A stretch of 49,682 bases of DNA from positions 1 through 49,682 of IMG/VR virus record IMGVR_UViG_3300015202_000015; one strand, 5' to 3'. Below, piece after piece: positions 13,668-33,317 of the stretch. The DNA comes from a virus. A program made the position numbers and the translations under genes. The notes under the pieces were generated by a model. That model was not told the DNA's origin. It did not search any database and saw nothing but the letters and a program-made list of their open reading frames with translations. Numbering within the stretch: the first letter of the stretch is position 1; each line of letters starts with the position of its first letter.

Positions 13668-14975
13668 ATGGCGATTCCCACTGAGCGCGAGCTCGTACCG
13701 CGTGGGCCGTGGCCCGAGGGCGCGAACAATGTTGCGCGTGAAGACTCGATCCCGTCGGGGCAGTTCCGTAGTGGCATCAATGTCGATGTGTACCCTGGCG
13801 GTAAATTACGTCGCCGCCGCGGGCAGGCGCTGAGCACGGCACAAGCCGGCTCGCGCTGCGCGTGGAGCGACGGTCACTACGCGCTGTTTCGCGCGGCGGG
13901 GAGCTTGTACCGGTTCGTTCCCGGCCAAACACCGCTGCTGTTGTGCTCAGGGCTGCAGATCGACGCCGATATGGCGTACTGCAGCGTCAACCAGTACATC
14001 TACGTGTCCGATGGCGCGCAGGCGCTGCGCGTAGACACGCAGAGCAACGCTGTGCGTGCGTGGGGACTGCCTACACCCTTGGGGCAACCTACGCTGACGG
14101 CTACGGCCAACGGAGGGCTCGACGCCGGCACATACCAGGTGGCCATCACCTATCTGGACGCCAGCAAAGAGGAGTCAGGCTCGACGTTGTCTACGCAAGT
14201 GGACGTGGTTCAAGGCGGGGGCATAGCACTCAGTGCGTTTCCTCCCGCGCCGGCCGATGTCGCCGCCGTCAATATTTACTTGACCCAAGCCAATCAGGTA
14301 GAAATGTGTTTGTACGCCACGGTGCCGTACAACGTGTCGTCGGTGCAGCTGTTCCGGGATAACTTCGGGCGCCCTCTGCAGACGCAATTCCTATCCCCGC
14401 TGCCCGCCGGCAACGACGCGGCGTTCACGCTCGGCCGGTTGTTTGTGGCTATCGGCAACAGCGTGTGCTGGTCGGAAGCGCAACGGTACGGGCTGTTCAG
14501 TGCCGAGTTCAACTATGTGTCCTACGCAGCACCAGTAGTGTTGCTTGCGGCAACCGCACCTGGTGCGCAGTCGCAAGGGCTGTTTGTTGCCACTACAGCA
14601 CGCACGTATTTCCTGCAAGGTACGGCGCCAGGGCAGTTCAATAGCATTTTGGCGTACACGGCAGGTGCGGTGCCCGGTACGATGACCATGATTTCTGGCT
14701 CGTACTTCGAGGCAGACGGTGTGCCAAACGTGCCGGTACCGGTGTGGGTATCGACGGTCGGCACCGTGTGTATCGGCATGCCGGACGGCACGGTGCGCCC
14801 GCTGACGGAAGGGCGGTTTGCAATGGCGGTTGGTGAGCGCGGGTCAGCCATTTTTCGCGAACTCGATGGGGTGCGGCAGGCGCTGTTTACGATGCGTCCG
14901 CCAACGGCGACGTCTCCGTTGGCAGCGACGGACTCGCTGACAATCACCCGAGTGAAAAACGGGTTATCGCTATGA
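13668..14975 (+). CDS. Tail hub / stabilisation protein candidate, propeller-like
   Basis: A 435-residue, beta-rich protein with repeating blade-like segments, for example ALFRAAGSLYRFVPGQ, QYIYVSDGAQALRVDT, GTYQVAITYLDASKEESG and RTYFLQGTAPGQF. The start GPWPEGANNVAREDSIPSGQFRSGINVDVYPGGKLRRRRG resembles phage proteins at the neck that adopt a beta-propeller, comparable in role to P22 gp10. A fibronectin-like stretch sits near residues 140-215. The product likely closes the portal or forms the tail hub. Structural class is inferred by eye; no direct homology to gp10 is claimed. Confidence 0.6.
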   Translation: MAIPTERELVPRGPWPEGANNVAREDSIPSGQFRSGINVDVYPGGKLRRRRGQALSTAQAGSRCAWSDGHYALFRAAGSLYRFVPGQTPLLLCSGLQIDADMAYCSVNQYIYVSDGAQALRVDTQSNAVRAWGLPTPLGQPTLTATANGGLDAGTYQVAITYLDASKEESGSTLSTQVDVVQGGGIALSAFPPAPADVAAVNIYLTQANQVEMCLYATVPYNVSSVQLFRDNFGRPLQTQFLSPLPAGNDAAFTLGRLFVAIGNSVCWSEAQRYGLFSAEFNYVSYAAPVVLLAATAPGAQSQGLFVATTARTYFLQGTAPGQFNSILAYTAGAVPGTMTMISGSYFEADGVPNVPVPVWVSTVGTVCIGMPDGTVRPLTEGRFAMAVGERGSAIFRELDGVRQALFTMRPPTATSPLAATDSLTITRVKNGLSL

Positions 14976-15800: not shown

Positions 15801-18788
15801 GTGGCTACACGCTACGCTTTGCCTCGACGCCTTATAGTACGCGGCGATGCAAGCGTAGCTGCTAAGTACACAGCGCGCGGCGATACGTTGCTCGGGCAGT
15901 TGATGCAGCAGCTCGGCGAGAGCGGGCTCAAGCAGGGGCGGCAACGGATTGTTGAGCGCGGTGTAATATTCACTGTTGCCTTCGACTCCGTTGTCCCTTC
16001 GCTGACGATCGACGTCACCGGGATAGAGTCCGGCGTCTTGAGTCCTGACAAAGTATCGCTATGGATACCCACCGGGTTCGTTGTCTATCCGGCGTCGGAA
16101 GCTGCGCCCGCCGGCTGGGGCACGCCCGTGGTGCAGGATACCGGCGATAAAATAACGCCTTATACGGTAACAAATACTTCGCCGGGGCTCGCGTTAAATC
16201 GATGGACACCGGGGGGTCCACTTGGGCAAGTGCTTCTCTCTACCGTAGCGAAAGCCGGATACCCAGCGAACCGCGCCAACGTAGTGGTGCCTTCAATGTA
16301 TGACCCGAAGTTCGGGCCAGCGTTGAAAAAGAAACTTCCTGCGCTCGGCTCAGCAACCCCGTTGACAGCTTATCGTATTGAGTTCGTCGACTTCAGCGCA
16401 CAGAGCCCCGCCCCCCAAGGTGAGCAGCTTGCTATTGCTAACAACAAGCGCGCAGTATTTGAAAAGGTAAATGCTCACCGTGTAGGTATTGGGCGAGATC
16501 CGTTGCTGCTGCCGGTACGGGGGTTTTTTGACTCGGGCCAGATCGCCGCTGAGATCGCTTACGCCTCGCATACGTTGGGGCATATGAGCAACCTGTTTCC
16601 GAAGCACTGGAAAACAGCAGACGACCAGTACATGCACGATGGTGCGCGCGAAAATGTGCCTGGGGTAGACGCTACGTCTCGTAGTCATAATTTCACTCAG
16701 AACGTGGTTGCAAATGGATTTCCTCCCATTCCGCAAACTGGCGTGGACGCAAACGGATACCCAGTGTTTGACGTTCCCAATCCGGGACCGCCGATCACTC
16801 CCACACAGGCCGTAAACGGGTGGCTTGGATCTCCAGCGCATAAAGCAACAATCGAATCGGCTAGCTGGGACGGGTTTTCTACGACAACAAATATTGGAGT
16901 GCGCAAAAATTTCGCTGCGCAAGATTTTATTCGTTGTGACCAGTGGATCGGGTGCGGCAACCGGACGTGGCAGTCGAGTCACGCGGAGATACCCGTACTG
17001 AGTTGGTTCGGGTTCAATGCTTTGAATTTAGCGTGGGAGACTTGGCCGTGTAGCTACGCCGGCCCCGGTACTTGCCCGCCACCGACTGACCCATTGACTG
17101 AGCTTGGCAACATCGTCGATAGCAATGGTTTTTTTTGGCTGAACTACACTTATGCCAAAAAAACTAGTTCGTCACAACATGCCGTCAAAGAGCCTGCGTT
17201 GGATAATCGTATTTTCGCACGCGGGCGCTGTATCGCCATCGCCCCGAACAAAGGCGTCGTTTGGGCTGCTGCGATCCAGAAGTTCCCGAGCAACAACGCT
17301 ATTGTGCTTGACACTTATCGCTTGGTCGCACTTGTACATCACCAGGACGAACAGCTACCGAGAACAAAAGCCTACGGCATGACGCCATTTTTGCACGTGT
17401 GGTATTGCGACATGCCTGGTGACAAGTTTCTGGCGGTAAATGCGCCGGCCATAATTCGCGGCGTGTTCGGGCACGAAGGCGACGAAGGCTTCGCATGGGA
17501 CGAAGTGAATAACTCCTGCTCATGGCGAGACGGCGGCGTGGTCGACGTAGGGACTTCTGACGGATCAACTCGCGATCTGCTTAAGTATGCCTCGCAGTGG
17601 GTGTTCAATAGCGTTGGTATGAAAGCCGCGTGTTTACGCGACACAGGTGTTTACTCGGACTACCTGGATGCTTTTTGGCCGCATGATAGCTTTGGTGCGC
17701 TGCGGTGCTATGAATCCGGCGACCCGTTGTTCAACTACATAGAAGGGCTTCCGGCATCACCGATAGAGCTTACGTTTACAGGTGACGAGCAGGGTAACTA
17801 CTCGGTTTCAAAGCAGTGGCTCGGGACCGGTCCCGCTGGGCACTCGCCAGCTGTTATCCATCTGGCAGATGTTTACTCCAGCTTCGTAGACCCTGTGGTC
17901 AGCAGTGTGGAGCAGTTCGATGCGTTTGTGCAGCCAGTAGCTGTGGGCTACGACACGCACGATGCGCTGGTCTACGCGAGGCGCATATCCGCGCAAGCGT
18001 TGAGTACGTCGGATCTGGCGGGACGGATATTCGCCGGGATGTCGTTCGGCGGGTACGACGATCCGTGGAACACGCGGTTCACTGGGTTTGTGTCGCTGTC
18101 GATTGCAAACCAAGGGCAGGCAAATGACACATGGCATGGTAACTTCCAGGTCATCGACATGAAAGATGAGGTAGTCGGGCTGGTCGGTACGCGTGCATTC
18201 TGGTCGATTCAGTATTTTCCGTTGGGAGACCCGCACTACGGCGCGCTGCGAGTCGACTACACGTCGTGGTTGTTGGTCAACTGGTATCAGACTCCGCAGC
18301 TATTTAATAACGTGCGCGTCTGGCGCAAAGGCGCGTTGCTGCACGAGCAGAAATATGCCAGCCCGGACGGCGCGGTGATTGACCTGGGCGAAGTATGCTA
18401 CCAGACTACTCCGCAGGCGGCAGGCGGCGGCGGTACGCAGCTGTCGATCGGCGTATTTCTGCCTTTGTCGACGGCGCCGAATGTTCTGTTTTCGTACACC
18501 AGTAATCGCGCGAGAGAATGGATCATGTCTTACGAGTTCTACCCACAGCCAAACACGGGGTACGTTGCTACGTCGCCGGGGTGTATCTGTGGGCGCGAAA
18601 CGTTGGATCTGTCTTTACCCGATTACTCGTGCAAACCATACATTACCGAGCTGACAGTGCGCACCGATACTTCGTGCGTAACTCGCGGAGGACGTACGAC
18701 AAGTTCGTTCGAAGCTGCATCGCCAGTGGTAGCTTTGACACAAACAACGGGTGTGAACCCCCACTTCTTATATGCGAGAACGGTATGA
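15801..18788 (+). CDS. Large tail protein with embedded CAP (SCP/PR-1) domain
   Basis: A 995-residue protein starting at GTG 15801, three bases after the previous stop. Residues about 50-200 are beta-rich. Residues about 215-372 carry CAP-superfamily features: an N-terminal helix VFEKVNAHR, then A.SHTLGHM with H257 and H261, H279 before GARENV with E284, then W341-LGSPAHK (H347) and TNIGV. These match the conserved His/Glu/Trp-x2-SPxH pattern of SCP/PR-1/YkwD proteins. The remaining 600 residues are beta-rich, with several WW/YW aromatic clusters, and probably form the tail or receptor-binding body. CAP domains in phage virion proteins are rare; a surface-binding or enzymatic role in entry is inferred. 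Confidence 0.75.
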   Translation: MATRYALPRRLIVRGDASVAAKYTARGDTLLGQLMQQLGESGLKQGRQRIVERGVIFTVAFDSVVPSLTIDVTGIESGVLSPDKVSLWIPTGFVVYPASEAAPAGWGTPVVQDTGDKITPYTVTNTSPGLALNRWTPGGPLGQVLLSTVAKAGYPANRANVVVPSMYDPKFGPALKKKLPALGSATPLTAYRIEFVDFSAQSPAPQGEQLAIANNKRAVFEKVNAHRVGIGRDPLLLPVRGFFDSGQIAAEIAYASHTLGHMSNLFPKHWKTADDQYMHDGARENVPGVDATSRSHNFTQNVVANGFPPIPQTGVDANGYPVFDVPNPGPPITPTQAVNGWLGSPAHKATIESASWDGFSTTTNIGVRKNFAAQDFIRCDQWIGCGNRTWQSSHAEIPVLSWFGFNALNLAWETWPCSYAGPGTCPPPTDPLTELGNIVDSNGFFWLNYTYAKKTSSSQHAVKEPALDNRIFARGRCIAIAPNKGVVWAAAIQKFPSNNAIVLDTYRLVALVHHQDEQLPRTKAYGMTPFLHVWYCDMPGDKFLAVNAPAIIRGVFGHEGDEGFAWDEVNNSCSWRDGGVVDVGTSDGSTRDLLKYASQWVFNSVGMKAACLRDTGVYSDYLDAFWPHDSFGALRCYESGDPLFNYIEGLPASPIELTFTGDEQGNYSVSKQWLGTGPAGHSPAVIHLADVYSSFVDPVVSSVEQFDAFVQPVAVGYDTHDALVYARRISAQALSTSDLAGRIFAGMSFGGYDDPWNTRFTGFVSLSIANQGQANDTWHGNFQVIDMKDEVVGLVGTRAFWSIQYFPLGDPHYGALRVDYTSWLLVNWYQTPQLFNNVRVWRKGALLHEQKYASPDGAVIDLGEVCYQTTPQAAGGGGTQLSIGVFLPLSTAPNVLFSYTSNRAREWIMSYEFYPQPNTGYVATSPGCICGRETLDLSLPDYSCKPYITELTVRTDTSCVTRGGRTTSSFEAASPVVALTQTTGVNPHFLYARTV

Positions 18789-19255
18789 CGCTGCAGGTAT
18801 CTACAGGGCTTAAAAAACTTTTTATGGCGCCTTTCGTGAGAGCGTTTAGTGGAGGCGCCATCGCTGTTTACGGCGGCGCGCGCCCCGCGACCGCCGATGT
18901 AGCTGCTCCCACTGCACCGCTCGCGTGGATAACGCATAACGGCTATCCGTGGGTACCGGGGAGTTTGGGTGCAGGACTTGGTTTTCTACAAGACGGCCCG
19001 TTGGTTGTAAATGATCCGGCGCAAGAGTGGCTATGCGCGCCTATCACTGCGGGGACAGCAACGTGGTGGAGGCTTTTTAGCGCGTCGCCCGCAGAGAATT
19101 TTGCGACAAACTACGACTTGGCCCGCGTCGACGGAGACGTCGGAACAATAGGAACAGGTTCGCCGGCAGAGCTGCAAATACATAATACTGGTCTGCTTGT
19201 AGGACAAGTAGTTCCTGTTACCTATTTCCTCTACACTGTGCCACCAATCCTCTAA
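18785..19255 (+). CDS. Tail-associated protein, first of two tandem paralogues
   Basis: A 156-residue protein starting at the ATG at 18785, an ATGA overlap with the CAP-domain gene; longer frames upstream lie inside that gene. Its pattern STGLKKLF...FSGGAIAVYGGARPATAD...GTATWWRLF...GTIG aligns by eye with the next gene. The family is common in phage tail regions, forms beta-rich subunits and has no assigned function. The two genes are about 25% similar by eye, so an old duplication is likely. Exact role, for example baseplate or fibre subunit, is unknown. Confidence 0.65.
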   Translation: MTLQVSTGLKKLFMAPFVRAFSGGAIAVYGGARPATADVAAPTAPLAWITHNGYPWVPGSLGAGLGFLQDGPLVVNDPAQEWLCAPITAGTATWWRLFSASPAENFATNYDLARVDGDVGTIGTGSPAELQIHNTGLLVGQVVPVTYFLYTVPPIL

Positions 19256-19265
19256 GGAGTGCGAC

Positions 19266-19781
19266 ATGAATCAATTTTCAACAGGGCTGCGTAATGCACT
19301 GAACAACAACGATGGCTTGGCGCACCAGCTTACCGGCGTCGCTGCCGGGGCTTCGGCCGGAACGGGTAGTGGGTTTCTGTATTTGTTTGCTGGCGCGGTA
19401 CCGGCTGGCCCAGACGCGGCGCTGGACATGTCCTCCGTGCATACGCTACTCGGCAAAGTCAGCTCCAATGCCGGCGGTAGTACAGGTGTTGCACTCGCCG
19501 CATCTGCGTCCGGCGTGATCCAAAAAAACGCGACAGAAACCTGGTCGACGGGAGCGATGACATTCTCTGGTGCATCTTCGGGCAGCTCGACGTTAACGGC
19601 GACGTTCTACCGTTTTTGTGAGGGGTCGGATAATGGGCAAGGTTCGTCGACTACGCTGCCTCGCATGCAAGGTACGATTGGTACGGATCTGTCTTACGAC
19701 ATGCCGCTGAGCAACAACATATTGGCTGCGGGCGCGAATGAAGTGATCAATACGTGGCAGTATCAGGAAGGTAACTTCTAA
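19266..19781 (+). CDS. Tail-associated protein, second of two tandem paralogues
   Basis: A 171-residue protein with a clear ribosome site (AAGGAG before ATG 19266). It shares with the preceding gene the start STGLRNAL, a GFLYLFAGAVPAGPDAA segment, a TATFYRF segment and a PRMQGTIGTD segment that correspond to the neighbour's. The C-terminus ends in an N/T/W-rich strand region. A structural, beta-rich virion protein is the best guess. The duplication may have allowed the two copies to specialise in different ring positions. Confidence 0.65.
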   Translation: MNQFSTGLRNALNNNDGLAHQLTGVAAGASAGTGSGFLYLFAGAVPAGPDAALDMSSVHTLLGKVSSNAGGSTGVALAASASGVIQKNATETWSTGAMTFSGASSGSSTLTATFYRFCEGSDNGQGSSTTLPRMQGTIGTDLSYDMPLSNNILAAGANEVINTWQYQEGNF

Positions 19782-19787
19782 TTAGCC

Positions 19788-20333
19788 ATGACTTGTTTTT
19801 GGCAGCGATTCGTTAGCGCCGACGATCCAGATTGTATCGTCGCGCCCACAACACGTATTTATATTGCGCCGGGGTATGGGCAATTAGCATTTGGTACTAA
19901 TATAAACAATAGCGGGCCGCTTTCCATTTACGATCAGCTTCCTCCTGTATCGCAAGTTTTCCCAACTAGCGCTACAGTAATCAGTGTATCTGTCTATGCG
20001 CCCGTTGAAGGCAGTTCTGACCCAAGTTGCGAAATTATTACATGGGGGCAAGGATGGCCTACGAGCGTAGAATCCCCCCCTCTTGGGGCGCTACTGCACG
20101 CGCCATATTCTGTAGCTATTTCTTGGGACGCCTACGGCAGCGTCAGCCCCACAAATGATTTTCCAATTGCTGATATTTTAGTCGCATGCGAATTCACTAC
20201 TTCGGACGCGGGTTTAAACTATATCTGGTCCCCTGATACCGCTTATCATGTCGGTGGGGTAATTCTCGTAATGACTATTCAGACTGATTTGGGTATTGGG
20301 TTATACGTGTACTCGCCATCGGCTTGCTACTAA
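19788..20333 (+). CDS. Hypothetical tail-region protein
   Basis: A 181-residue protein starting six bases after the previous stop. Cysteines are scattered (MTCFWQRF, PDCIVAP, PSCEII, VACEF, SACY), and the sequence is beta-rich with many aromatic residues. The local DNA is visibly poorer in G and C than its neighbours, which hints at more recent arrival or relaxed constraint, as is common for receptor-binding components. No family recognised. Confidence 0.55.
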   Translation: MTCFWQRFVSADDPDCIVAPTTRIYIAPGYGQLAFGTNINNSGPLSIYDQLPPVSQVFPTSATVISVSVYAPVEGSSDPSCEIITWGQGWPTSVESPPLGALLHAPYSVAISWDAYGSVSPTNDFPIADILVACEFTTSDAGLNYIWSPDTAYHVGGVILVMTIQTDLGIGLYVYSPSACY

Positions 20334-20335
20334 TC

Positions 20336-20557
20336 ATGCAGCTAATAAAGCACGGCCTCACAACGATTATACCGGGCATCCCAGCAACGCCAGGCAGCAC
20401 CTCTTGCCCTCCCGTGCCGCCGGTGATTACGCCTCCAGGTAGTCCTCCCGGTAACAGCGGGCCTCCGCATGCGTGCCATGTTGTGTACGTATTCGGGCCT
20501 CCGACACCACCAAATGTCGGCCCGACATTGATTAGCGCATTTTTGGAATGCACATGA
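20336..20557 (+). CDS. Small proline-rich protein
   Basis: A 73-residue protein from the ATG at 20336; an in-frame TTG at 20324 overlaps the upstream gene. About a quarter of the residues are proline, with PGIPATPG, CPPVPPVITPPGSPPG and FGPPTPP segments, so most of it is probably extended and flexible. It may act as a linker or a small tail adaptor. It ends in an ATGA overlap with the next gene. Confidence 0.5.
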   Translation: MQLIKHGLTTIIPGIPATPGSTSCPPVPPVITPPGSPPGNSGPPHACHVVYVFGPPTPPNVGPTLISAFLECT

Positions 20558-20997
20558 GCTCCTGCATAGTTATTCCACCATCGTCCGGGGCGCCTGCAAC
20601 TGTTTCTACGAATGCGAATCTGGGCTGGAATGCGGGGGCGTCGAGTATTACATCGTTGTCCGGCAACCTCCATGCGCAGTTTACGGTACCGGTAGCGGTC
20701 GGTGTAATTTGTGGTTTGGCAGCGGTAAGCGCGCCAGTCAGTGTGCCTACGTACGTCACTCACGCCTTCCTTTTTCAGCAACACTTCGGACTAGACAGCT
20801 GCGGAATTATTGAAAATGGGGTAGTGGTAGTTAACCCTTTTACACGCAGCCTTGCGTCTGTTTTTGAGATCCGCCGTGCTAACGAACACGTCACTTATTT
20901 TATTGACGGCGTTCTCGTGTACACATCCAAGCGGCTGTCTACCGGTGAAGTTGTTTTGGTCGGGTGCTTGTTTGCTGCCGGAGACACCATCGGATGA
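20554..20997 (+). CDS. Tail-region protein of unknown function
   Basis: A 147-residue protein from the ATG at 20554, in an ATGA overlap; another ATG lies at 20548. The C-terminal half (VFEIRRANEHVTYFIDGVLVYTSKRLSTGEVVLVGCLFAAGD) resembles lectin-like or jelly-roll phage domains in which a FxIDG..VYTS segment forms adjacent strands. It ends in an ATGA overlap with the GRRG-repeat gene, so the whole run 20,336-22,562 is likely translated as a coupled set. Confidence 0.6.
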   Translation: MSSCIVIPPSSGAPATVSTNANLGWNAGASSITSLSGNLHAQFTVPVAVGVICGLAAVSAPVSVPTYVTHAFLFQQHFGLDSCGIIENGVVVVNPFTRSLASVFEIRRANEHVTYFIDGVLVYTSKRLSTGEVVLVGCLFAAGDTIG

Positions 20998-22562
20998 GCT
21001 TGGTATTCGAATATTTTGTCGGCGCAGGATACGCCGCGGTTTCGGTGACAGGGCGTCGCGGGCGCGCGTATTCAACGTCGGGTACGGGCAACGCCGTATT
21101 GGATAAGGGTCGCCGCGGCAAAACAGCGAGCTCGGGTGGCGACGTAACGGCAGCTCTTGTGGGCCGGCGCGGGCATGCTCTGGCCTACGATACCGCGTTC
21201 AATGGCGCTGCAGCTTATGGCCGTCGTGGGCGTACGTTTTCTGCGTCTATTGCTACTCCCCCATTTGCCGCGGGCTTTGGCTACGGACGCCGCGGTGCGA
21301 CAACGGTATCGGGCAGCTTGTTTGAGTACGTTGCATTTGCTGGTGCAGGACGCCGCGGGCGATCGTTTGCTTCCAACTACAGCACAGCGATTTTAGCGCA
21401 CGGGCGCCGAGGGAAAACCTACGCAACAAACGTCAACCTTTTTAGTACCGGGTTTCTTATTGCGGGCCAAACCGCCGGGTATGTGTACGCATTAGGCGGG
21501 ACAGCGTTTAATCTGTACCAAAGCACGGCACTACTTAGCGATACGCTGGTGCTTAGTATCGGCATGCAATTTAATGACAGCGCAAATTTGTCGGCGAGGA
21601 TCACCGGAGGCGGCGGACGCCGGCGTCAGTCCTACGTGCAAGGAATAAGCATCGAGGACGTTTTTCGCGTTATTAACCGGATCGTTTTGGCCGAGAGCAT
21701 AACGCTGGTCGATACGTCCGTAGCTACGTTGAACACGCTACTGTTCATGGTGGATATGTTGCAGGCAGCAGACAGCACATTGCTGCGCCGCGACGCTATT
21801 TCGGCGGTCGCTGTTGCTGTTCATTACCGCGATCTGCTGCGACAAGGGTTTGTTACTTCGTTTCACGAGTCGATTGTTATCGACGCCGCGCAGAACATCC
21901 ACATCCATAGCTTGATAAAGCTGATGGAAACCATCGACGTCCACGCGACGACGGCGATGAGCGCGGGCATGCTGGTGAGTGCCGTAGATGCGTTGACTAT
22001 CGCAGATCCGTTATCGGCTATGCGCGCTGCGATGATTGGGCTGACGGACTCAGCGTTCATCGGGGGGCACTTTACATTCGCCGGTCTTGACTACACGATC
22101 TACGCGATGACCACGGTTGGCGCCGCGGTATCGGAGTATCAGGGCTGGAAGTTCAATTCGTTCTTCGTGGTCGACGGTATCGCTTACGGCGCGGACGACA
22201 CCGGTGTTCATGTGCTTGATGGGCCTGACGACAACGGCACGCCGATCGACGCATCAGTACGCGTCGGGTTGTCCACGTTGGGGTCGACGCTGTACAAAGC
22301 CGTTCCTGACGTCTATATCGGGTACACGTCCACTGGCGCTATGGGGTTGAAAGTAATTACTACGGACCGCGGCGTAAAGAAAGAAAACTGGTACGCACTG
22401 AGTGCGATCCCGAGATCTAGTAACGCCCCGGCGCGCTTCGCAGTCAGTACAGGGCTTCACTCTGTATACTGGGGGTTCGAGATCACTAACGCCGATGGCG
22501 CTGATTTTGAGTTAGACTTCATTAGCGTGTGGCGCATGACTTTGACGCGGAGAAAGACGTGA
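20994..22562 (+). CDS. Virion protein with seven GRRG repeats
   Basis: A 522-residue protein from ATG 20994. Residues 20-141 hold seven copies of G-R-R-G-x, starting at residues 20, 39, 57, 76, 98, 119 and 137, spaced 18-22 residues apart, each usually followed by a small polar residue and an aromatic or alanine. A degenerate GRRRQ appears at 208. The codons for the repeat differ between copies, which argues for selection on the protein rather than simple DNA duplication. The central region is helical; residues about 370-522 form a beta-rich domain (DDTGVHVLDGPDDNG, ENWYAL, VYWGFEITNADGADFELDFI) typical of phage tail proteins. The repeats may bind nucleic acid or another acidic surface. Confidence 0.7.
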   Translation: MSLVFEYFVGAGYAAVSVTGRRGRAYSTSGTGNAVLDKGRRGKTASSGGDVTAALVGRRGHALAYDTAFNGAAAYGRRGRTFSASIATPPFAAGFGYGRRGATTVSGSLFEYVAFAGAGRRGRSFASNYSTAILAHGRRGKTYATNVNLFSTGFLIAGQTAGYVYALGGTAFNLYQSTALLSDTLVLSIGMQFNDSANLSARITGGGGRRRQSYVQGISIEDVFRVINRIVLAESITLVDTSVATLNTLLFMVDMLQAADSTLLRRDAISAVAVAVHYRDLLRQGFVTSFHESIVIDAAQNIHIHSLIKLMETIDVHATTAMSAGMLVSAVDALTIADPLSAMRAAMIGLTDSAFIGGHFTFAGLDYTIYAMTTVGAAVSEYQGWKFNSFFVVDGIAYGADDTGVHVLDGPDDNGTPIDASVRVGLSTLGSTLYKAVPDVYIGYTSTGAMGLKVITTDRGVKKENWYALSAIPRSSNAPARFAVSTGLHSVYWGFEITNADGADFELDFISVWRMTLTRRKT

Positions 22563-24448
22563 GCGATGGGTTTTTCACTTGTGGGATCGGGTCGTCCGGC
22601 GCCGCGGCGGAAGTTCTTTCGCATTTCCGCACGCTTGACCAATTTACAACTAAGTTCGTTGAACAGGCGCTGACGTTCACCGATAAGCTGGGTACATTTC
22701 AGCTACCTAATTTGTCGTTCACGGTACCTGTTGTAGATGTCACCAAATACAGCATCACCGCACCGGGAGCTTTACCAACGCTCGGAGCGGTTAGCGATAA
22801 GCTATTTACGGACACGGTACCCACGGCGCCTAATTATGTTAATCCAAATCCCGTGTCGTTGGACCCTTTGGTCGCTACTGCTCCGGAGGTTCCGGCGCCT
22901 ACCTTTGCTCTTGCGCCGGGAGTGTACTCGCCGACGTTTCGTCCGCCAGTTGAACTTACTGACATAGTCAATCCGGTATTTGGCGATCACACGCGCTCGA
23001 TCATTCCGCCGACACCGCGCAATATCGTGCTGCCGACGCTGCCAGTAATAAACTGGGATGCGATCACTTTTGATACGACGCCGCCGGCATTCACTGCGGT
23101 ACCTCCGGATGCACGGGACTTCGCGTTTACTCCCGACACTTACACAGTAAAAATCGCAGACCAAGTGAAGCCGGCCATATTGGCCATGCTAAATGGCACG
23201 ACGGGTTTACCGGCGGCGGTAGAGAATGCGATATGGGCGCGCGCCGCGGAGCGTGAGAGCATGCTGGCGTTCCGTGCCGAGCAGGAAGCGGTAGGGACAG
23301 ACGCGTCTCGCGGGTTCACGATACCTTCGGGCGTACTGAATGCGGCGCGCGCTCGCGTGCGTCAAGACGCCCAAGACAAGCGCGTCACGCTATCGCGAGA
23401 CACGATGATCCGTACGCATGAAGTATTGATTGAGCAGCTCAAATTCGCTGTGGCGCAAGGGCTCGCTTACGAGACTCTGTTCATTCAGCTCTACTCGACA
23501 GTGCAAGGGTTGCGGTTGGATGCCGCTAAGTTTGCGGTGAACATTGCGCTGCAGGTATTCCAGGCGTTCGTCACCAAGTTCCAAGTCGACGCCGAGCTGA
23601 CGCGCCTGCGCGCGGAGCTGGCGCGCGATCAAATTCAGGTAGCACTCGGCAAGCTGCAAGGCTACGAGGCGCAGCTGCGCGCCGATCAAATTATCGGGCA
23701 GCTCAACCAGCAGGATCTGGACCGATACCTCGGGCTGCTCAATGCGGTACTTACCGACGCGAAAATATACGAAGCGGAAATCAGCGCGGCGAAGCTGCTG
23801 ATCGACGAACAGTCGCTGAAGCTACAGCAGGAGCGTACGCAGATCGACGCGGAACTGGCCAAATTGCAGGCGAGTGACATCGAAGCGCGTATCTGGTCGT
23901 CGAGCATCCAAGCCGAGGCTACAAAGCAGTCAGCGTGGGGAACGCGGGCGCAGACTTATGTGGCGCAAGTGCAAGCCTGGGGCACCGAACAGAACGTCAA
24001 GATCGAAAACCTGCGCGCGCAGATCGCCGCGAACGGTGACATAACGGCACGGTACGAAGCAGGAATCACCGGGTTCAACGCCAAGGCGAACTACGTGCGC
24101 ACGCAGGCTGAGTTGATTGTGCAGAACAACCAGACGGCGATTCAAGGTTACAGCGCGCAAACGTCGGGACTGTCGTCGTTTAATCTGGCGACAATTGAGC
24201 AGATGCGAAACCACATTACGGCGCTGCAGCAGAATGTCGAGCTCGCTATCAAGAACGGCGAAATCAATGTTCAGAACAGCTTGGAAGGTAAGCGGCTGGA
24301 AGAACAAGCGCTATCGACGGCGACGCAGGCGCTTTCACAGTTGTCATCAAGTGCGTTGTCTGGCCACAGCACGAGTGCAAATATCGGCGACACCTCGTCG
24401 CAGAACTACGGTTGCAGCTACTCGACCAGCCAGTCGTTCAGCACTTGA
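22559..24448 (+). CDS. Long helical virion protein
   Basis: I start this 629-residue protein at GTG 22559 because GGAG lies six bases upstream and the GTGA overlap matches its neighbours; an ATG at 22529 would overlap the upstream gene by 34 bases. Residues 1-200 are proline- and threonine-rich with repeated APxxP segments; residues about 215-590 are almost entirely helical with heptad patterns rich in A, Q, L and E; the last 40 residues are Ser/Gln-rich. This layout fits a trimeric needle, tail shaft or ejection protein. No family name is recognised. Confidence 0.65.
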   Translation: MSDGFFTCGIGSSGAAAEVLSHFRTLDQFTTKFVEQALTFTDKLGTFQLPNLSFTVPVVDVTKYSITAPGALPTLGAVSDKLFTDTVPTAPNYVNPNPVSLDPLVATAPEVPAPTFALAPGVYSPTFRPPVELTDIVNPVFGDHTRSIIPPTPRNIVLPTLPVINWDAITFDTTPPAFTAVPPDARDFAFTPDTYTVKIADQVKPAILAMLNGTTGLPAAVENAIWARAAERESMLAFRAEQEAVGTDASRGFTIPSGVLNAARARVRQDAQDKRVTLSRDTMIRTHEVLIEQLKFAVAQGLAYETLFIQLYSTVQGLRLDAAKFAVNIALQVFQAFVTKFQVDAELTRLRAELARDQIQVALGKLQGYEAQLRADQIIGQLNQQDLDRYLGLLNAVLTDAKIYEAEISAAKLLIDEQSLKLQQERTQIDAELAKLQASDIEARIWSSSIQAEATKQSAWGTRAQTYVAQVQAWGTEQNVKIENLRAQIAANGDITARYEAGITGFNAKANYVRTQAELIVQNNQTAIQGYSAQTSGLSSFNLATIEQMRNHITALQQNVELAIKNGEINVQNSLEGKRLEEQALSTATQALSQLSSSALSGHSTSANIGDTSSQNYGCSYSTSQSFST

Positions 24449-25154: not shown

Positions 25155-26811
25155 TGGAAATCAGGCATTTGACAATGCAAAGCGCGGCCGACTCCCGGTA
25201 GGGCGTAGCTTTAATCCGGGGCTGACAGCGCCGGATGACGGCGCGGGTTACACGTACGGCACGCCTTCCACGAATGTGCTGACGCAGCCCGCTCCTGTAG
25301 GACCAGCGGCGAGTGGAGGCGCAACCGCGAATCCAACACCGGCGCCTTCCGGTGATCCTACGGCGGATAGCGCACCTAATTTTGGGCCGCCTAACCCTAG
25401 CGCAAGCGCGATCATTGCCAACGGAATATCGACAATGGGTAACGCCGTCAAGCAGGCTGTTGCGGCTTCACCACCTGTACCGGTTGCGCAACCAGACGCC
25501 ACTGCGGCTGTTCCGCAGCGCAACACGGTAGGTGCGGCGCTGCCGGACGGCGTGGCACGTTACGGTGATAGTACGGGTGCGCAGATTTATATGGGGAAAG
25601 GCGCCCACGGCGAGCCAGTGTTTTCTGACACGGTACGCGGCGCGCAAAATATCAATCCGCGCACGGGCGCACAGTACACCGGTGACGGTAGTGTTCCCTC
25701 TTCGATCCCGCTCGATCCCGCCGATCATGCGCGCGCTGCTGTGGGCGCGCTGCGCTCCGGCGGAGCGCAGTTGTTCGGGCGCATGCCAACGAACGAACCG
25801 CAGCCAGCGAGCAACGCCGGGCCTGACCAGACTGCACAGACAGATGCGTCGATCGCGCGCTTGCGTGGTGCACCAAACGGCGGCAATGAGTTTGCGCGTA
25901 ATACGGTGGGCATGAACGCCGAACAGGCGCTGTATATGAACCCGGCGCAGCGACAGGACGCGGTGCTGCGTTCGATCGCGGCCAACCAAGATCCGAACCT
26001 CGACGCGGAGACGCGCAGTTCCAATGCCGCGCTTATTCGTCAGCTCGGCGTGCCTGCCGTGCAAGGGAACGGCCAGCCGGGACAACCCGGCCAGTTCGGA
26101 CAACCGGGCCAGCCCGGTGGTCTGACGCAGGCGCAAGCTGTAACTCTCGGGCTGAAAAGCAACGCTGAAGCCAACAAACAGACGAACGTTGACGCCGAGC
26201 GGCGTATTGCGCAAGAGAAGGAAGGCCAAGGTCGCGCGAACGATACTTTCAACAGCTATTACGGTGCGCTGAAGGACAACACGGCGTTGGACGAGCCATC
26301 GCGTCGACGTATCGCTTCGGTGCAGTCGTTGCCGGAGCTGGCCGCGCGAGATCCGAATTACCTGGACTCGGAAGCCGGTCGCGCCGCTGTGGGTAATCTC
26401 TACGACTACGCCAACAAGGCATTACACCCGCGCGGTATCGCGCCGGGCGGTCCCGGCGTCAATAATCTGCATCCGGGCGACCCGGTCGACATCGAGGAAC
26501 AAAATGGTCTCGGCGCATGGCTGCGGGGCTCGAAGTACAGCATGTCTGGCCCTTACGCGCGCCCTGATCCGGCGCACCCCGGCACCATGATCGCTGCGAA
26601 TGCAAATGATCCTGGCGCGAGTCGTAACACTTACCAAGGCAGTAGCTTGTTCGGCCCTAATATTTTAGATGGCCGTCAGAGCAACATTACGCCGGAACTC
26701 GCCACGGTGTTAGGTAAGAATAACGAAAATCTCGGTCGCTACGCGCCGATTTTCCAAGAACTTGCGCGCCGACAAAAACAGCAACGTATCAAGTCTTCTG
26801 GTAGCCAGTAA
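25147..26811 (+). CDS. Internal virion protein, Pro/Gly/Gln-rich
   Basis: A 554-residue protein from ATG 25147, with GAGAAG eight bases upstream and an 8-base overlap with the previous gene. It is largely low-complexity: the first 150 residues are Pro/Ala/Thr-rich; a GQPGQPGQFGQPGQPGG tract sits near residue 320; the C-terminal 200 residues look more ordered and helical. Its stop overlaps the ATG of the giant protein (TAATG). Order and style fit the set of proteins ejected with DNA by short-tailed phages. I cannot name a family. Confidence 0.6.
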   Translation: MASGNQAFDNAKRGRLPVGRSFNPGLTAPDDGAGYTYGTPSTNVLTQPAPVGPAASGGATANPTPAPSGDPTADSAPNFGPPNPSASAIIANGISTMGNAVKQAVAASPPVPVAQPDATAAVPQRNTVGAALPDGVARYGDSTGAQIYMGKGAHGEPVFSDTVRGAQNINPRTGAQYTGDGSVPSSIPLDPADHARAAVGALRSGGAQLFGRMPTNEPQPASNAGPDQTAQTDASIARLRGAPNGGNEFARNTVGMNAEQALYMNPAQRQDAVLRSIAANQDPNLDAETRSSNAALIRQLGVPAVQGNGQPGQPGQFGQPGQPGGLTQAQAVTLGLKSNAEANKQTNVDAERRIAQEKEGQGRANDTFNSYYGALKDNTALDEPSRRRIASVQSLPELAARDPNYLDSEAGRAAVGNLYDYANKALHPRGIAPGGPGVNNLHPGDPVDIEEQNGLGAWLRGSKYSMSGPYARPDPAHPGTMIAANANDPGASRNTYQGSSLFGPNILDGRQSNITPELATVLGKNNENLGRYAPIFQELARRQKQQRIKSSGSQ

Positions 26812-29800
26812 TGGCTATCGGCTCCTCGATGTATGACAGCAACGGCCGGTTCATTGGATCGGCCTCGGACATGTTGGCGTCGTTGCCATCGGCCGCTCGG
26901 CGCCCTTCGGATGATCCGACGACGGCGTTTGCCCCGGCAGACTACAGTGCACCGACGGCCGCACCTACCGATGACTCCACCGTATTTGGGCGCAATCTGC
27001 GCCGCGCGGTGGGCGACATCGGCCCGGAAGTGCGTAGCCTGGCCGGCCTAGGACAATCTGCACTCGGTTTCACCGACGCCGGCCGCGCCAATATCCAGCA
27101 GGGGCAAAGCGACATTCAGCAGAACGCGCTGCGTGACCCGGACCAGACGCTGAACGACACCGTGCGTGACGGTAATTGGGGGGACTACGCCGCGGCAAAA
27201 TTCGGTGCGCTGCTGCCGTCGGCAGCGATGATGCTGCTGCCTGGCGGCGTCACCGGCAAAGTAGCCGGTAAAGTAGCGACGACCGCCGCGCGCAGCGGTA
27301 TTACATCGCTGGCTGAGTCTTCCGCTGCAAAGTATGCCGCCGATCAACTGGCGTCGGGTGCGCTCAAGGTGGCCCCGCAAATCGCTGAGAAGTACGGCGC
27401 CGAGGCGGCGACAAGAGCGGCGTTGAAGAAAACGGCCGAGGAAGCGCTTCCTGACGCGCTCAAAACAGTGCGCTACGCCAACCCCGAGCTGGCTGCGTCA
27501 ACAGATGCCGCAGCAGCACAAGCCGGCGCGTCTGCGCAAGCAGCGGGTAATTACGTCGGTACCGCCGCCGGCGCATTACCCGGTGTGGCCGCGGGCAGTA
27601 ACCAGGACATTCTCGACGCTACTAGCGCGGATGACCAACAGACGCGCGCGATCAAAGGGCTCGTCGGCAGTACGGTCGGCGCTGCGCTGTCAGCCGTTAT
27701 CCCCGGCAAGCTGCTTGAGCGACTCGGTGGCGGTGGGGCAGTGAAAGACGCTGTCAGTGCGACTGCGCAGCGGTTCCTGCCGGCGGTCGCCAAAACCGCC
27801 GTGAAAGAAGGTGCGCTGATGGCCGGTTTGAATACCGTGCAAACGGCTTCAGCACTGGCAACACACAGTTGGATGACTGACCACTTCGACATTCTGCCGC
27901 CGGGCGCGGCGATGCAGTACGCCGATTCGCTCGCTACCGGGCTGATGTTCGGTACGGCGTTCGGGGCGGTCGGCGGTGTGGCAGAGCATGCGCCCCGTGT
28001 GGACTTTGCCGCGCAACGCGCGAAGTTGGCGACGGGCATGCAAGATTCGGTCAACAATTTGCGCGCCGCCGTGAAAAAAGGCATGGGGGAGACAGAATCT
28101 GCTCCTGACACGGGAACCCCCGTGCCAGAGCAAAAACCGGTGGCGGCTGAGCCGGCGGCGGCTGCGCCTACTGCAGAAGGGCTGGCTACGTCCGAAGTCA
28201 ACCCGTCAGACCTGAGCGGGGACGAACGTAGCGCGTTCGACCGATTTACGCAGAACAGACAGGGGCTACAAGACAAGGCTGACCAGGACGTAGAAAGCGC
28301 CAAGCGCTCCGATGACATCGAGGCCAGGTACGCGCAGTTTATGAAATCGGGCGAAGGGGAACTGGGAAACGCCCCGCGCGCGCCAGTCAACCCGGTGCCG
28401 CTCGACTCTCGGCTGCAAAACACCTTGATGTCGTTCGTCCCTCACGACAGCTTGTTGTGGAAGTTTCCCGAGACCGCACAAGCGGTGGCCAAGACCGCGG
28501 AAAAACTGTTCACAGGTACGGACCCGAGCGAGCTCAACCCGAAACATCTGGCTATTCTTAACGAAGCAGTCGGTTCGGCAGAGCTGGAGCGGTGGGCGCA
28601 CGACGGCCCCGCGTTTGGCGAAATGACGGACCTGACAAAAAAGGTCAGCAACGAAACTGCCGATACGACGAAACTGACCGAGCAGGAACAGAACACGCAG
28701 ACAGCGCAGGGGCTGGAGCGCCAGCTCAGCACATTGCCGCCGGGCGCGGAACGCGACAAAGTACAGGCTCAGCTCGCTGATGCTCAGTCGCGTACGTCTG
28801 CGGCGCAGATCGACGCCCACGACGATCCGCGCGCGCCTGCGCCAACAGATTCCGCGGAGTTCTCCCCGAAGCCAGACGAAGGCAAAGCGGTCGGTATCAA
28901 CGACCGCCCGGTCGAGGATCTGCCGACGGCGGCGCTGTCGCAGAAAGTGATCGATGCCACACCGGGCACACCTGAGCATGCGCAAGCGCAAGCGGATCTT
29001 CGCGACAGTCTGATCGGGCACCGTGATACGGACCCGAACCGCCAGTACCGTGAAATGCGTACGGGCGAAGGCAAAAATAACGTCATCGTTGGCAACAACG
29101 ACGCACAAGTACAGAAAACGCTCAAGCGCGGTTTCGAGATCGAGTCCGACCATCCGGGCAAACCGTTGATTGTCGACATTCAGAACCTCGTCAAGAAAAA
29201 GCTCAGTGGCGCCGACGGCGAGCGCATGGCTGGTAATGCCTTTGGCGCGCTGACGGAGACAATGGGCGATCTCCAGCTGGCCGGCGTCAAGGTCAAGCCG
29301 GAAACGATCAAGGCCGGTGTGGAGTACGCGCCGGGGGCAAAACTCACGCCGAACCAGGCGATGCGTTTGCGCATGGAGGCGAACGCAGCGGTCAAGCCGG
29401 CGCACGCCGGCAAAGTGCTCGACGCAACGGTTGGCATAAACACGAAGGCGCGCGGCGATTTACGCACTGCAAACTCAGTCGGCGCAGTTGACCGTGCGCG
29501 CCAAGCTGAAGGTACGGTACGTGAGGTAGCGAACCGTGGGGCGCTCGCGCAGGAAAAACTGAGCGCCGCGCGGCGCAATAGCGATGTGCAGGAAGTGAAG
29601 CCTGTCGGTGAGGCGGACAACCGTATTGACGACGGCCAGCTGCTTACACGCCGGGCGCCGCCAGAGGCGCCTGCGCCGGACTCGCGCGCGCCGGGCGAAG
29701 CAGCGAAAGTAGAACAGGCCGGCGGTATTGCCGATGTGCAGCACGCCGGTCCGTACGACAAGGTACTGACTAAAGCGCGTGAGGATCTGATCGACGCCAA

Positions 29801-32800
29801 GACGCCAGCGGCGCGCGGGGCGATCAAGCACGATACCGGGGTAAAGATCGGCCAGGCCGAGTTGGACAAGCAACTCGTACGCAGCCAGATTTCTGACGCT
29901 CGGTACACGCGCGAAACCGCTGCACTGAAAGACTACAGCACCGGCAAGTCGCGCGACTATTTGCAGCGCGCCGGCAAGGGCGAGTTCGATCATTTCAAGG
30001 TCACTGAGTCGCGCGGTGAGAACGCGGAGCCGAAAGAAAGTGCTGACGCCGTAGCGAAACAGGAGTCGACTCCCGCGACTGGTGCGACCGAGCCGAAGAA
30101 CGCCGCGCGCAAAGCGGTTGATCCTGCTGAGGCCAAACTGGCGAAAGCCGACGCTGAAGCGCGCAGCGATAAACTCGACGAAGACATCAAAGTCGGTTTC
30201 GACGAAGCAGCGAAAGACGAAGGCCCGCACGACGTTCGCAAAGAGACACAGGCGATGAACGCGGTGCTCGATCGCGTAGGGGTGGCGTCGCGCGTGCGCG
30301 TGCACACGCTGCCGGAGAACATGCGCGAAGGGCGCTCCGGGCTGTACCGGCCGGGTAATAATACGATTTATATCAACCCTAACCTGCATGGCGCCAAGCG
30401 CGTGGAAGTGCTGGCGCACGAGCTGGGCCATCACATTCTGCGCAATACCATCGGGGAGCAGCTGGAGCACGCCACACCTGAACTGCGCGACGCCCTGCTG
30501 GCCGATCACGCTGCGTGGGTCGAGTCGCACAACGCCGACAGCAAAGTGTCAGATGTACTGGCGTCGCGCAAACCATACTTCCGCGCCGGGGCGATCGAAG
30601 AGGGCAGCAACGGCATGACCGTGGCTGAGCTGGCCGCGTCCGACAAGAAAAAAATGTCCTACCTGTTCGATCACGAGGAATATCTGGCGGACAACATCGC
30701 CAAGTTCCTCACGCAGAACAAAGAAAGTCAGTCGATCATCGGCAAGTTTTTCAGTAGCATCGCCGACACGCTGCGGTCGGCGTATGACGCGCTATTCAAA
30801 GCTGGCGAGGACAAGTACAAGCCAGCACCCTCTGTGGAAAAATGGATGCAGGGGCTGTTCGATCAGAACGTGCGTGACGCGTCCGGCGCGCTGGGCGAAA
30901 CGCTGCCCAAGGAAACGGCCGATGCCGGTGTCAGCGCCGCGGTGCATATGGCGCACAACGACGGCGGTGCCCCGCCGATGCCGCCGGGGAAAAACGGAAT
31001 CGCTGGCGGTGCTGGCGCTCCACGTGGAACTTCGGTGCTTGAGGAGCCAGGGTTCGCTCCGTACAAAACGTTTGTGGAAAACCATCTGAGTCCTGACGCG
31101 CGCGGCATCGCCGAGCGCGCGCTCTATCGTCGCGTTCTCATGGACAAGATTCGCGAAAGCTACGAGCACGACGTGCCGCTGCAGAAAGCGCTCGAAAACC
31201 CCGAGCACGAAATCGCTGCGCTGATGTACGTCGGCGACAAGATGCTGCAGGACGGCCGCATTACGTTGGGCCCGAAGGCTACCGAAGTCACGCTTGGCAT
31301 CCGCACCAAATTGTTCAAGATGCTTGGTGTGGCCGGTGACAACGATTTCGCGATCAAACTGTTCGAAGACATCCGCAGCGGAGAGATCAAGCGTACGCTC
31401 GACGCCGGCAACAAGTACGACGTGCGCGATCGCGTGGCAGATGCGAAAGGCGACAACGCCACGCGGCAGCGTATTTTCAACGCGGTCAGCCAGGTGAATC
31501 GCGATAGTATCTACCAGCCGTGGCGCCGGCAGTTCTATGGCACTACGAATAACGCGCACCTGTCTTACACCCCAGCACTACGCGCGGCGAACGCGCTGTT
31601 CAAGGTCGGCACCGGTGCTATCAGCGAACACGCCGGGTACGAACAACAGCGCATGCGCGGTATTCAAGGGTTTAATACGCAACTCGGTAAGGCGCTGGGA
31701 GAACTGAAGCCTGTTGATTTGACTGCGGTGAGTCAGCACTTGCGCGAACACACGACACCGACAGACGCAGCACATGCTAACGCCGTGAACGGCGCGTACC
31801 AGCTGACCCGTGATATGTTCGACTACGCGCGTAAAGCTGGTGTTGCCATAAAAAGCCGCGGGCCGAATCATTTTCCAGTAGTCATGGACCCGACCGAAGT
31901 TGTAAAACGTGAAGGCGATTTCCGCGCGCTGGTCGGCAAGCCTGAGTTTGAGGAAGGGATTCGCGCCGTACTCAACGACACGAAGTCGACGCATGCTGAG
32001 CTGATCGACAAGCTCGTCAAGATGGCGTCGAGCACCGCGTCCGAGCATGAAGTCAGCACGGTCAACCCGCTGGCGCCGCCGGACCTGCGCGCACTGAACC
32101 CGCGTGTGTTACAAACGATCTACGACAAGGGCACGCCGGAGGACATCAAGGCGTTCGCCGATTTCCAGCAGAAAGATCTGTCGCAGTCGCTGTTCCCCTA
32201 CATCACTGGGTTGGTCAATCGCGCCGAATTCGCGCGGCGTGCCGGCGACGATGGTAGCCGCTTGCACGCACTGTTCGCGAAAGCCGTAACTCAAGGCGCG
32301 CACGAGAAGGACATTCAGTACACGAAGGACGCGATCGCAGCGTTCACCGGTGCTTACGGTGCCGACGGGAGCCCGTTTGTACGATCGATCTTCGGCGACA
32401 AGGCAGCGAAGTGGGTAACGTCGACGCCGGTGAAGCGATTCACGGACACCGCGCTGGCTTACCAGAACGTGCGTAACCTGTCGTTGTCGCTGCTGTCGGC
32501 ACTGGCGGACCCGATGGGTATCGGCGTGCGGTACGGTGGTATCCGCAGCATGGAGGATTTGTCGCAAGCGTGGAAATCGTTCAGTGGCGGCATGGGCGCG
32601 ATCTTCAAAACCTCGTCGTCGCAAGATCTGCGCGACCAGGCCAGTATTATCGCAATGGCCGGCGACTACATCACCAGCAGCATCCTGTCGAGTGAGTATT
32701 CGCCGAACGCCGCGGGCATCGGTGCCAAGGTCAGCGACTTCATGTTCAAGGCCAATGGGCTGTCGAAGTACGTCGAGGGCACACGGTACATGGCGCTCTC

Positions 32801-33317
32801 GGCGGCGAATGCGTTCCTGCTGAAGCACGCTGCCGGCCGTGACGCCAAGCACTCGGCACGGTATCTACGCGAGCTAAAACTGGAGCCGGGCGATGTGGTG
32901 CCGGGAAAAAACGGTTTCGTCAAAGCGCTCACGCAGGACGATCTGCGCACGGCCACGCCCGAGGAGGCCGCGCGCGATGAGCGCGTCAAGGCGGCGCTCA
33001 ATCAGTTCGTCGACGAGTCGATTCTACGCACCGACGCCGGCCAGTCGCCGCTGTACTTCAACGACCCCGCGTTTCGCCTGGTGACGCAGTACAAGCAGTT
33101 CATGTACGCCTTCGACTCGCAGATATTGGAGCGCATCACGCACGAAGCGCACTACTCAAACTTCGCTCCGATCGTACCGCTGCTGGCTTACGTGCCGGTG
33201 ACGATCGCCGCGGAAATGACACGTGCCGCGATCCAGTACGGTCCCGGCGGGAACCCGGCGCAGCAGGACTTCGGCCCGCTGGACTGGGCCGCGGGCGGGG
33301 CATGCAGATGGGGGTAG
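26811..33317 (+). CDS. Giant polyvalent-type internal virion protein with metallopeptidase motif
   Basis: As read, 2,168 residues; the intact form is probably about 2,223 (see the out-of-frame tail). Residues 1-400 have hydrophobic, Ala/Gly-rich helices that could interact with membrane. A zincin-like segment follows: H1203-E-L-G-H1207, with an ExxxD motif (E1290 to D1294, in HEEYLADN) as likely third ligand. Residues about 1,850-2,160 match the conserved C-terminal domain of large phage polyvalent proteins (LSLSLLSALADPMGIGVR, GLSKYVEGTRYMALSAANAFL, YKQFMYAFDSQILERI, YVPVTIAAEMTRAAI). Such proteins are packaged and ejected to act on cell wall, host proteins or defence. Metallopeptidase activity is predicted from motif only. 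Confidence 0.8.
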   Translation: MAIGSSMYDSNGRFIGSASDMLASLPSAARRPSDDPTTAFAPADYSAPTAAPTDDSTVFGRNLRRAVGDIGPEVRSLAGLGQSALGFTDAGRANIQQGQSDIQQNALRDPDQTLNDTVRDGNWGDYAAAKFGALLPSAAMMLLPGGVTGKVAGKVATTAARSGITSLAESSAAKYAADQLASGALKVAPQIAEKYGAEAATRAALKKTAEEALPDALKTVRYANPELAASTDAAAAQAGASAQAAGNYVGTAAGALPGVAAGSNQDILDATSADDQQTRAIKGLVGSTVGAALSAVIPGKLLERLGGGGAVKDAVSATAQRFLPAVAKTAVKEGALMAGLNTVQTASALATHSWMTDHFDILPPGAAMQYADSLATGLMFGTAFGAVGGVAEHAPRVDFAAQRAKLATGMQDSVNNLRAAVKKGMGETESAPDTGTPVPEQKPVAAEPAAAAPTAEGLATSEVNPSDLSGDERSAFDRFTQNRQGLQDKADQDVESAKRSDDIEARYAQFMKSGEGELGNAPRAPVNPVPLDSRLQNTLMSFVPHDSLLWKFPETAQAVAKTAEKLFTGTDPSELNPKHLAILNEAVGSAELERWAHDGPAFGEMTDLTKKVSNETADTTKLTEQEQNTQTAQGLERQLSTLPPGAERDKVQAQLADAQSRTSAAQIDAHDDPRAPAPTDSAEFSPKPDEGKAVGINDRPVEDLPTAALSQKVIDATPGTPEHAQAQADLRDSLIGHRDTDPNRQYREMRTGEGKNNVIVGNNDAQVQKTLKRGFEIESDHPGKPLIVDIQNLVKKKLSGADGERMAGNAFGALTETMGDLQLAGVKVKPETIKAGVEYAPGAKLTPNQAMRLRMEANAAVKPAHAGKVLDATVGINTKARGDLRTANSVGAVDRARQAEGTVREVANRGALAQEKLSAARRNSDVQEVKPVGEADNRIDDGQLLTRRAPPEAPAPDSRAPGEAAKVEQAGGIADVQHAGPYDKVLTKAREDLIDAKTPAARGAIKHDTGVKIGQAELDKQLVRSQISDARYTRETAALKDYSTGKSRDYLQRAGKGEFDHFKVTESRGENAEPKESADAVAKQESTPATGATEPKNAARKAVDPAEAKLAKADAEARSDKLDEDIKVGFDEAAKDEGPHDVRKETQAMNAVLDRVGVASRVRVHTLPENMREGRSGLYRPGNNTIYINPNLHGAKRVEVLAHELGHHILRNTIGEQLEHATPELRDALLADHAAWVESHNADSKVSDVLASRKPYFRAGAIEEGSNGMTVAELAASDKKKMSYLFDHEEYLADNIAKFLTQNKESQSIIGKFFSSIADTLRSAYDALFKAGEDKYKPAPSVEKWMQGLFDQNVRDASGALGETLPKETADAGVSAAVHMAHNDGGAPPMPPGKNGIAGGAGAPRGTSVLEEPGFAPYKTFVENHLSPDARGIAERALYRRVLMDKIRESYEHDVPLQKALENPEHEIAALMYVGDKMLQDGRITLGPKATEVTLGIRTKLFKMLGVAGDNDFAIKLFEDIRSGEIKRTLDAGNKYDVRDRVADAKGDNATRQRIFNAVSQVNRDSIYQPWRRQFYGTTNNAHLSYTPALRAANALFKVGTGAISEHAGYEQQRMRGIQGFNTQLGKALGELKPVDLTAVSQHLREHTTPTDAAHANAVNGAYQLTRDMFDYARKAGVAIKSRGPNHFPVVMDPTEVVKREGDFRALVGKPEFEEGIRAVLNDTKSTHAELIDKLVKMASSTASEHEVSTVNPLAPPDLRALNPRVLQTIYDKGTPEDIKAFADFQQKDLSQSLFPYITGLVNRAEFARRAGDDGSRLHALFAKAVTQGAHEKDIQYTKDAIAAFTGAYGADGSPFVRSIFGDKAAKWVTSTPVKRFTDTALAYQNVRNLSLSLLSALADPMGIGVRYGGIRSMEDLSQAWKSFSGGMGAIFKTSSSQDLRDQASIIAMAGDYITSSILSSEYSPNAAGIGAKVSDFMFKANGLSKYVEGTRYMALSAANAFLLKHAAGRDAKHSARYLRELKLEPGDVVPGKNGFVKALTQDDLRTATPEEAARDERVKAALNQFVDESILRTDAGQSPLYFNDPAFRLVTQYKQFMYAFDSQILERITHEAHYSNFAPIVPLLAYVPVTIAAEMTRAAIQYGPGGNPAQQDFGPLDWAAGGACRWG

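Follow-up and report, generated by a model that had tools for sequence, protein, structure and literature searches.

Seven GRRG motifs at the N-terminus of a podovirus tail protein as probable turns of a β-repeat array

The window analyzed here, the whole 49,682-base stretch of virus record IMGVR_UViG_3300015202_000015, encodes a 522-aa tail protein in which the tetrapeptide GRRG recurs seven times near the N-terminus. We propose that this podovirus tail protein opens with an array of seven to eight β-repeats, each of ~20 residues, in which the GRRG copies form the turns between strands; the probability of roughly 0.7 that we attach to this proposal covers only the identity of the array and the turn assignment. 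In the homologous units the turn would contain proline (approximately A-x-L-[LPxP]-x-L-x-A-S-G-x4), and from sequence comparison and a structural model we conclude that GRRG probably stands in place of this LPxP tetrapeptide, the turn having presumably been changed to GRRG across seven consecutive units in the phage of the window. That the arginines serve in contacts is much less certain.

The protein consists of the N-terminal array of seven plus one units, a central helical-repeat region and a conserved C-terminal domain (Table 1), and its start ATG sits within the stop of the preceding gene (ATGA, a 4-base overlap). Translation of the gene confirmed all seven motifs at the residues given in the preliminary description, with spacings of 19, 18, 19, 22, 21 and 18 residues, and in 20,000 composition-preserving shuffles, whether of the full protein or of residues 1-160, GRRG never occurred more than twice. 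The glycine and arginine codons vary among the copies, pairwise codon identity within the motif being 0.36 vs. 0.32 expected from the codon usage of this phage, and a search for direct repeats at the DNA level in the array region found none. The codons are thus about as different as chance allows, which indicates that the motif is held at the protein level, as had been claimed, and that no trace of recent duplication is left; recent duplication of the GRRG units was rejected on this codon randomization. Residues 1-160 carry a net charge of +15, and when they were tested for a collagen-like Gly-X-Y pattern, glycine was not found at every third residue. A further, degenerate copy had been placed at residue 208, but this is a lone GRRR, 71 residues past the last GRRG unit and within an insertion relative to L136 (IMGVR_UViG_3300047160_017940), the closest homologue found. 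The array seems to close with an eighth, non-GRRG unit, since LIAGQTAGYVYAL (~residues 154-167) pairs, by eye, with RLFAQQSPGFAQL, the eighth PxF unit of L136.

Table 1. Positions, in the window, of the array gene, its repeat units and the related genes.
Feature	Positions	Strand	Remarks
Head-closure Hc3 protein (phrog_8040)	13668..14975	+	same structural block as array gene
Upstream gene, 149 aa	20548..20997	+	matches phrog_26502 positions 92-188
Array gene	20994..22562	+	522-aa virion structural (tail) protein; ATGA overlap with gene upstream
GRRG copy 1	21051..21062	+	residue 20
GRRG copy 2	21108..21119	+	residue 39
GRRG copy 3	21162..21173	+	residue 57
GRRG copy 4	21219..21230	+	residue 76
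GRRG copy 5	21285..21296	+	residue 98
GRRG copy 6	21348..21359	+	residue 119
GRRG copy 7	21402..21413	+	residue 137
Probable eighth unit without GRRG	21453..21494	+	~residues 154-167; inferred from by-eye alignment
Isolated GRRR (GGGGRRRQSY)	21615..21626	+	residue 208, outside array
Conserved C-terminal domain	22086..22559	+	~residues 365-522; common to phrog_26502/phrog_12240
Downstream virion gene (phrog_10969)	22559..24448	+	bait for syntenic homologues

The structural block of the genome is of podovirus type, with a terminase large subunit, a portal, a major head protein and Hc3. Within it, the 522-aa protein has matches to two profile families: phrog_26502, from KPP25-type phages and annotated as virion structural protein, matches residues 298-518 (E 4e-19), and phrog_12240, of F116/LKA5 type, matches the central and C-terminal residues 176-498 (E 1e-17). 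According to a published description, F116-like phages are podoviruses that bear long tail fibres (PMC5217972). The C-terminal half also matches a solved protein identical in sequence to KPP25 gp06 (PDB 26gp, 26la and 44nx; profile E 9e-18). The upstream domain and the array, which form one chain in phrog_26502, are split in the window between the genes at 20548-20997 and 20994-22562. In another locus, L146, a single gene joins Hc3, the head-closure protein, to this C-terminal domain (34% identity, E 7e-18), and the fusion, which is an indirect sign and not a location, suggests that the domain sits at the tail hub. In that gene (L146:2659-4347) the domain with which the array protein ends, in the window as in KPP25-type phages, forms the C-terminus of Hc3; the window encodes Hc3 and the array protein in two different genes. 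No match was obtained by tblastn of residues 1-165 against phages or with the full 522-aa protein against plasmids, two scans of genome contigs found no relatives, and a literature search on the repeat and on the KPP25 structure returned nothing useful.

Other genes of the window were recorded alongside. Two adjacent genes (18518-19255 and 19266-19781) both match phrog_3758, a virion structural protein family, and are likely a duplication; KPP25 gp07, of the phrog_3758 family, is found in PDB 44nx together with gp06. The gene at 19788-20333 encodes an acidic protein (-13) starting with MTCFWQ, and a counterpart lies at the same place in L139 (L139:3180-3698). A long, 668-aa collagen-like Gly-X-Thr protein of tail-fibre type is encoded at 292-2298, and the 2168-aa protein encoded at 26811-33317, which matches phrog_30152 at the C-terminal end and, mid-protein, a family of metalloproteases (HELGHH motif), is probably an internal or ejection protein.

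To find arrays in related phages, the downstream gene (phrog_10969) was used as bait, which gave twelve syntenic loci, and the genes upstream of the bait were then read. Several homologues of the array gene start with arrays of ~17-23-residue units. The L136 homologue (49% identity) has the first of its seven A-x-P-[KHRA]-[FM] units at residue 21, one residue later than in the window, with spacings of 20, 21, 19, 23, 21 and 20, and in L139 seven LP units are spaced by 18, 21, 18, 23, 21 and 18; both arrays equal that of the window in unit number and agree with it in start and spacing. Each of L149, L147 and L148 carries some eleven units of LPxP type, such as TAALTLPAPVVAAGNINVTG in L149, and protein UIS65491 of Acidovorax phage AP1 has six GPL units. 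No Pfam model matches the ~20-aa LPxP repeats that make up the arrays of these genes. The window protein shares the several N-terminal units of 17-23 residues (seven, with spacings of 18-22), but it carries GRRG in 7/7 units and none of the proline turn motifs (LP, PxF or GPL), and we therefore regard it as a variant of the array rather than a plain member. A search for further GRRG repeats, proposed in the preliminary description, was carried out by scanning viral contigs for three GRRG motifs spaced as in the window, with two DNA probes that sample some codon combinations only; the matches listed were collagen-like, out-of-frame or low-complexity, and none of them resembled the window array.

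Pairwise comparison of the array interiors was not significant (z below 1) and short-unit HMMs of the array gave no matches, so the evidence for kinship among the units comes from gene position, the flanks on either side, the number of units, their spacing and a position matrix. Both ends of the array can be aligned with L136 (MSLVFEYF/MTAIVFEAF and the NYSTAILAH/NYAIAAMPH region). The order of the spacings, when the window, L136 and L139 were taken jointly and compared with permuted orders, gave a P of about 0.002, and only 0.07-0.13 when the window was compared with L136 or L139 singly. When a position matrix was derived from 43 units of proline type and the GRRG residues were left unscored, the best fit placed the first arginine on the proline, and this optimum was equalled in 10 of 2000 shuffles over all offsets. 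Unit 3 of the window, TAALVGRRGHALAYDTAFNG, aligns gap-free with the L149 unit given above.

The suggestion that GRRG forms a turn comes from the models. The fold prediction called for in the preliminary description gave no usable fold for the 522-aa protein itself, which AlphaFold modelled, with four sequences, at a mean pLDDT of 30 only. The model of L149, based on an 11-sequence alignment, reached a mean pLDDT of 46 (27-54 in the array), and in this low-confidence model LPxP is the exact four-residue gap between two strands in 8/8 units read. By analogy, GRRG is predicted, with low confidence, to be a four-residue turn between two β-strands. Foldseek searches with the L149 model returned tailspikes as the best PDB matches at a TM of 0.19, with T7/P22 tail proteins and carbohydrate-binding modules as further low-TM matches, and all of these were discarded as evidence. 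If the units do fold as β-hairpins, the array could project as an elongated β-structured stalk or linker from the C-terminal domain, which would probably be the part seated on the tail hub. One di-arginine per turn would then be aligned along an edge of the stalk, and this basic row, if exposed, would most likely touch an acidic partner surface, either that of an adjacent protein of the virion or a polyanion on the cell surface.

The di-arginines had originally been read as a possible charged ladder for DNA, LPS or an acidic partner protein. The protein-level repeat in a virion protein and the strong local positive charge agree with that reading for the window protein, but as a general function it does not hold, the arginines being replaced by P-x-F, LPxP or GPL in homologues at the same position. 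With array limits drawn by eye, the net charge is +15 in the window, +13 in L136 and +14 in L148, near zero in L139, L147, L149, AP1 (+2) and KPP25 (-2), and -8 to -13 in L008 and L144. Because these charges differ so widely, charge is not a family property; a charged ladder is possible in the window protein but is not a conserved function of the family. The outcome that the preliminary description had named as refuting the ladder, homologues in which the arginines are not conserved, is seen here, and the net charge of their arrays ranges from -13 (L144) to +14 (L148). Basic turns occur among the relatives only in the closest one, L136, where the residues following the turn prolines are K, K, H, R, R, A and H; in tests chosen after seeing the sequence, 6/7 basic residues gave a binomial P of about 2e-5 and K/R alone (4/7) a P of about 0.003. 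In a weaker form of the ladder, then, a basic turn may be a shared trait of the lineage that comprises L136 and the window phage.

Compatible with the β-repeat identity, and possible though doubtful, is the view that the di-arginines are a cationic ladder selected to bind LPS or another anionic surface polymer, which would make the array a putative receptor-binding element. Seven identical tetrapeptides with randomized codons in otherwise divergent units point in this direction, as do the charge of residues 1-160 and the basic residues after the L136 prolines, whereas the neutral or acidic arrays of homologues argue against it. More broadly, conversion of a structural β-repeat turn into an arginine ladder in all seven units could have created a new electrostatic contact surface on the tail, for LPS or for an acidic virion partner; we hold this to be unlikely, but if true, tail binding could be altered through changes confined to the turns of the repeats, the fold being left as it is.

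It is also unlikely that the GRRG array has no kinship with the LP and PxF arrays and arose independently or by insertion at a tolerant N-terminal site. Standard methods cannot align the array interiors, L007 is 43-45% identical in the C-terminal part without having any array, and the array of L008 is of a different type from that of the window, all of which would fit such an origin. Against it, both array ends align with L136, unit number is equal and spacing similar, and the position-matrix optimum sets arginine on proline. Since L007 has no array, the family does not depend on having one. The array-less locus (L007:3631-4968) has a separate upstream gene bearing YadA-head-like repeats.

Contact of the arginines with packaged or exiting DNA, putatively in the tail channel, is improbable: the L146 fusion does tie the C-terminal domain to a head-closure or tail-hub protein, but the charge is absent from homologues and the KPP25/AP1-type array adjoins a globular domain that, by eye and with no profile match, appears lectin- or SPRY-like and not a channel component. 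A recent tandem duplication or a low-complexity artefact of a GC-rich frame is scarcely credible, given that the frame is a conserved gene with seven units in homologues and that its codons are at chance identity with no DNA repeat in the region, even though the pattern scans for GRRG arrays matched mostly collagen-like or out-of-frame low-complexity sequence.

Identification of the GRRG copies as turns of a β-repeat array would describe a short repeat array that is common to podovirus tail proteins, matches no Pfam model and has in KPP25 gp06 a solved relative with which it can be compared. One motif per unit can switch wholesale among close relatives (LP, PxF or GRRG) while the number and spacing of the units are kept, so that what the turn and its charge do is open to direct test.

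Among known systems, KPP25 gp06 (phrog_26502) has the same C-terminal domain, short LP-bearing units at the same place and an upstream domain equivalent to the 149-aa upstream gene; unlike the window, it combines upstream domain and array in a single 620-aa chain, lacks GRRG and has a near-neutral array. The structural protein UIS65491 of AP1 similarly joins an upstream domain, six GxAxLGPLxAxG units (period 17-21) and the C-terminal domain in a single chain, with GPL in place of GRRG and little net charge in the array. Members of phrog_12240 (F116/LKA5-type) share the central repeats, the C-terminal domain and a similar gene order, but the LKA5 and 8P proteins have neither an N-terminal GRRG array nor an LP array. 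Most similar is L136, in which the genes are likewise split, the seven units lie at matching positions, the array is basic and most turn prolines are followed by a basic residue; it differs in having an A-x-P-x-F/M motif in place of GRRG. Taken together, these comparisons are consistent with the window array being a tail-protein β-repeat array whose turn has become basic, the arginine ladder representing a local variant of a design that is more widespread among phages.
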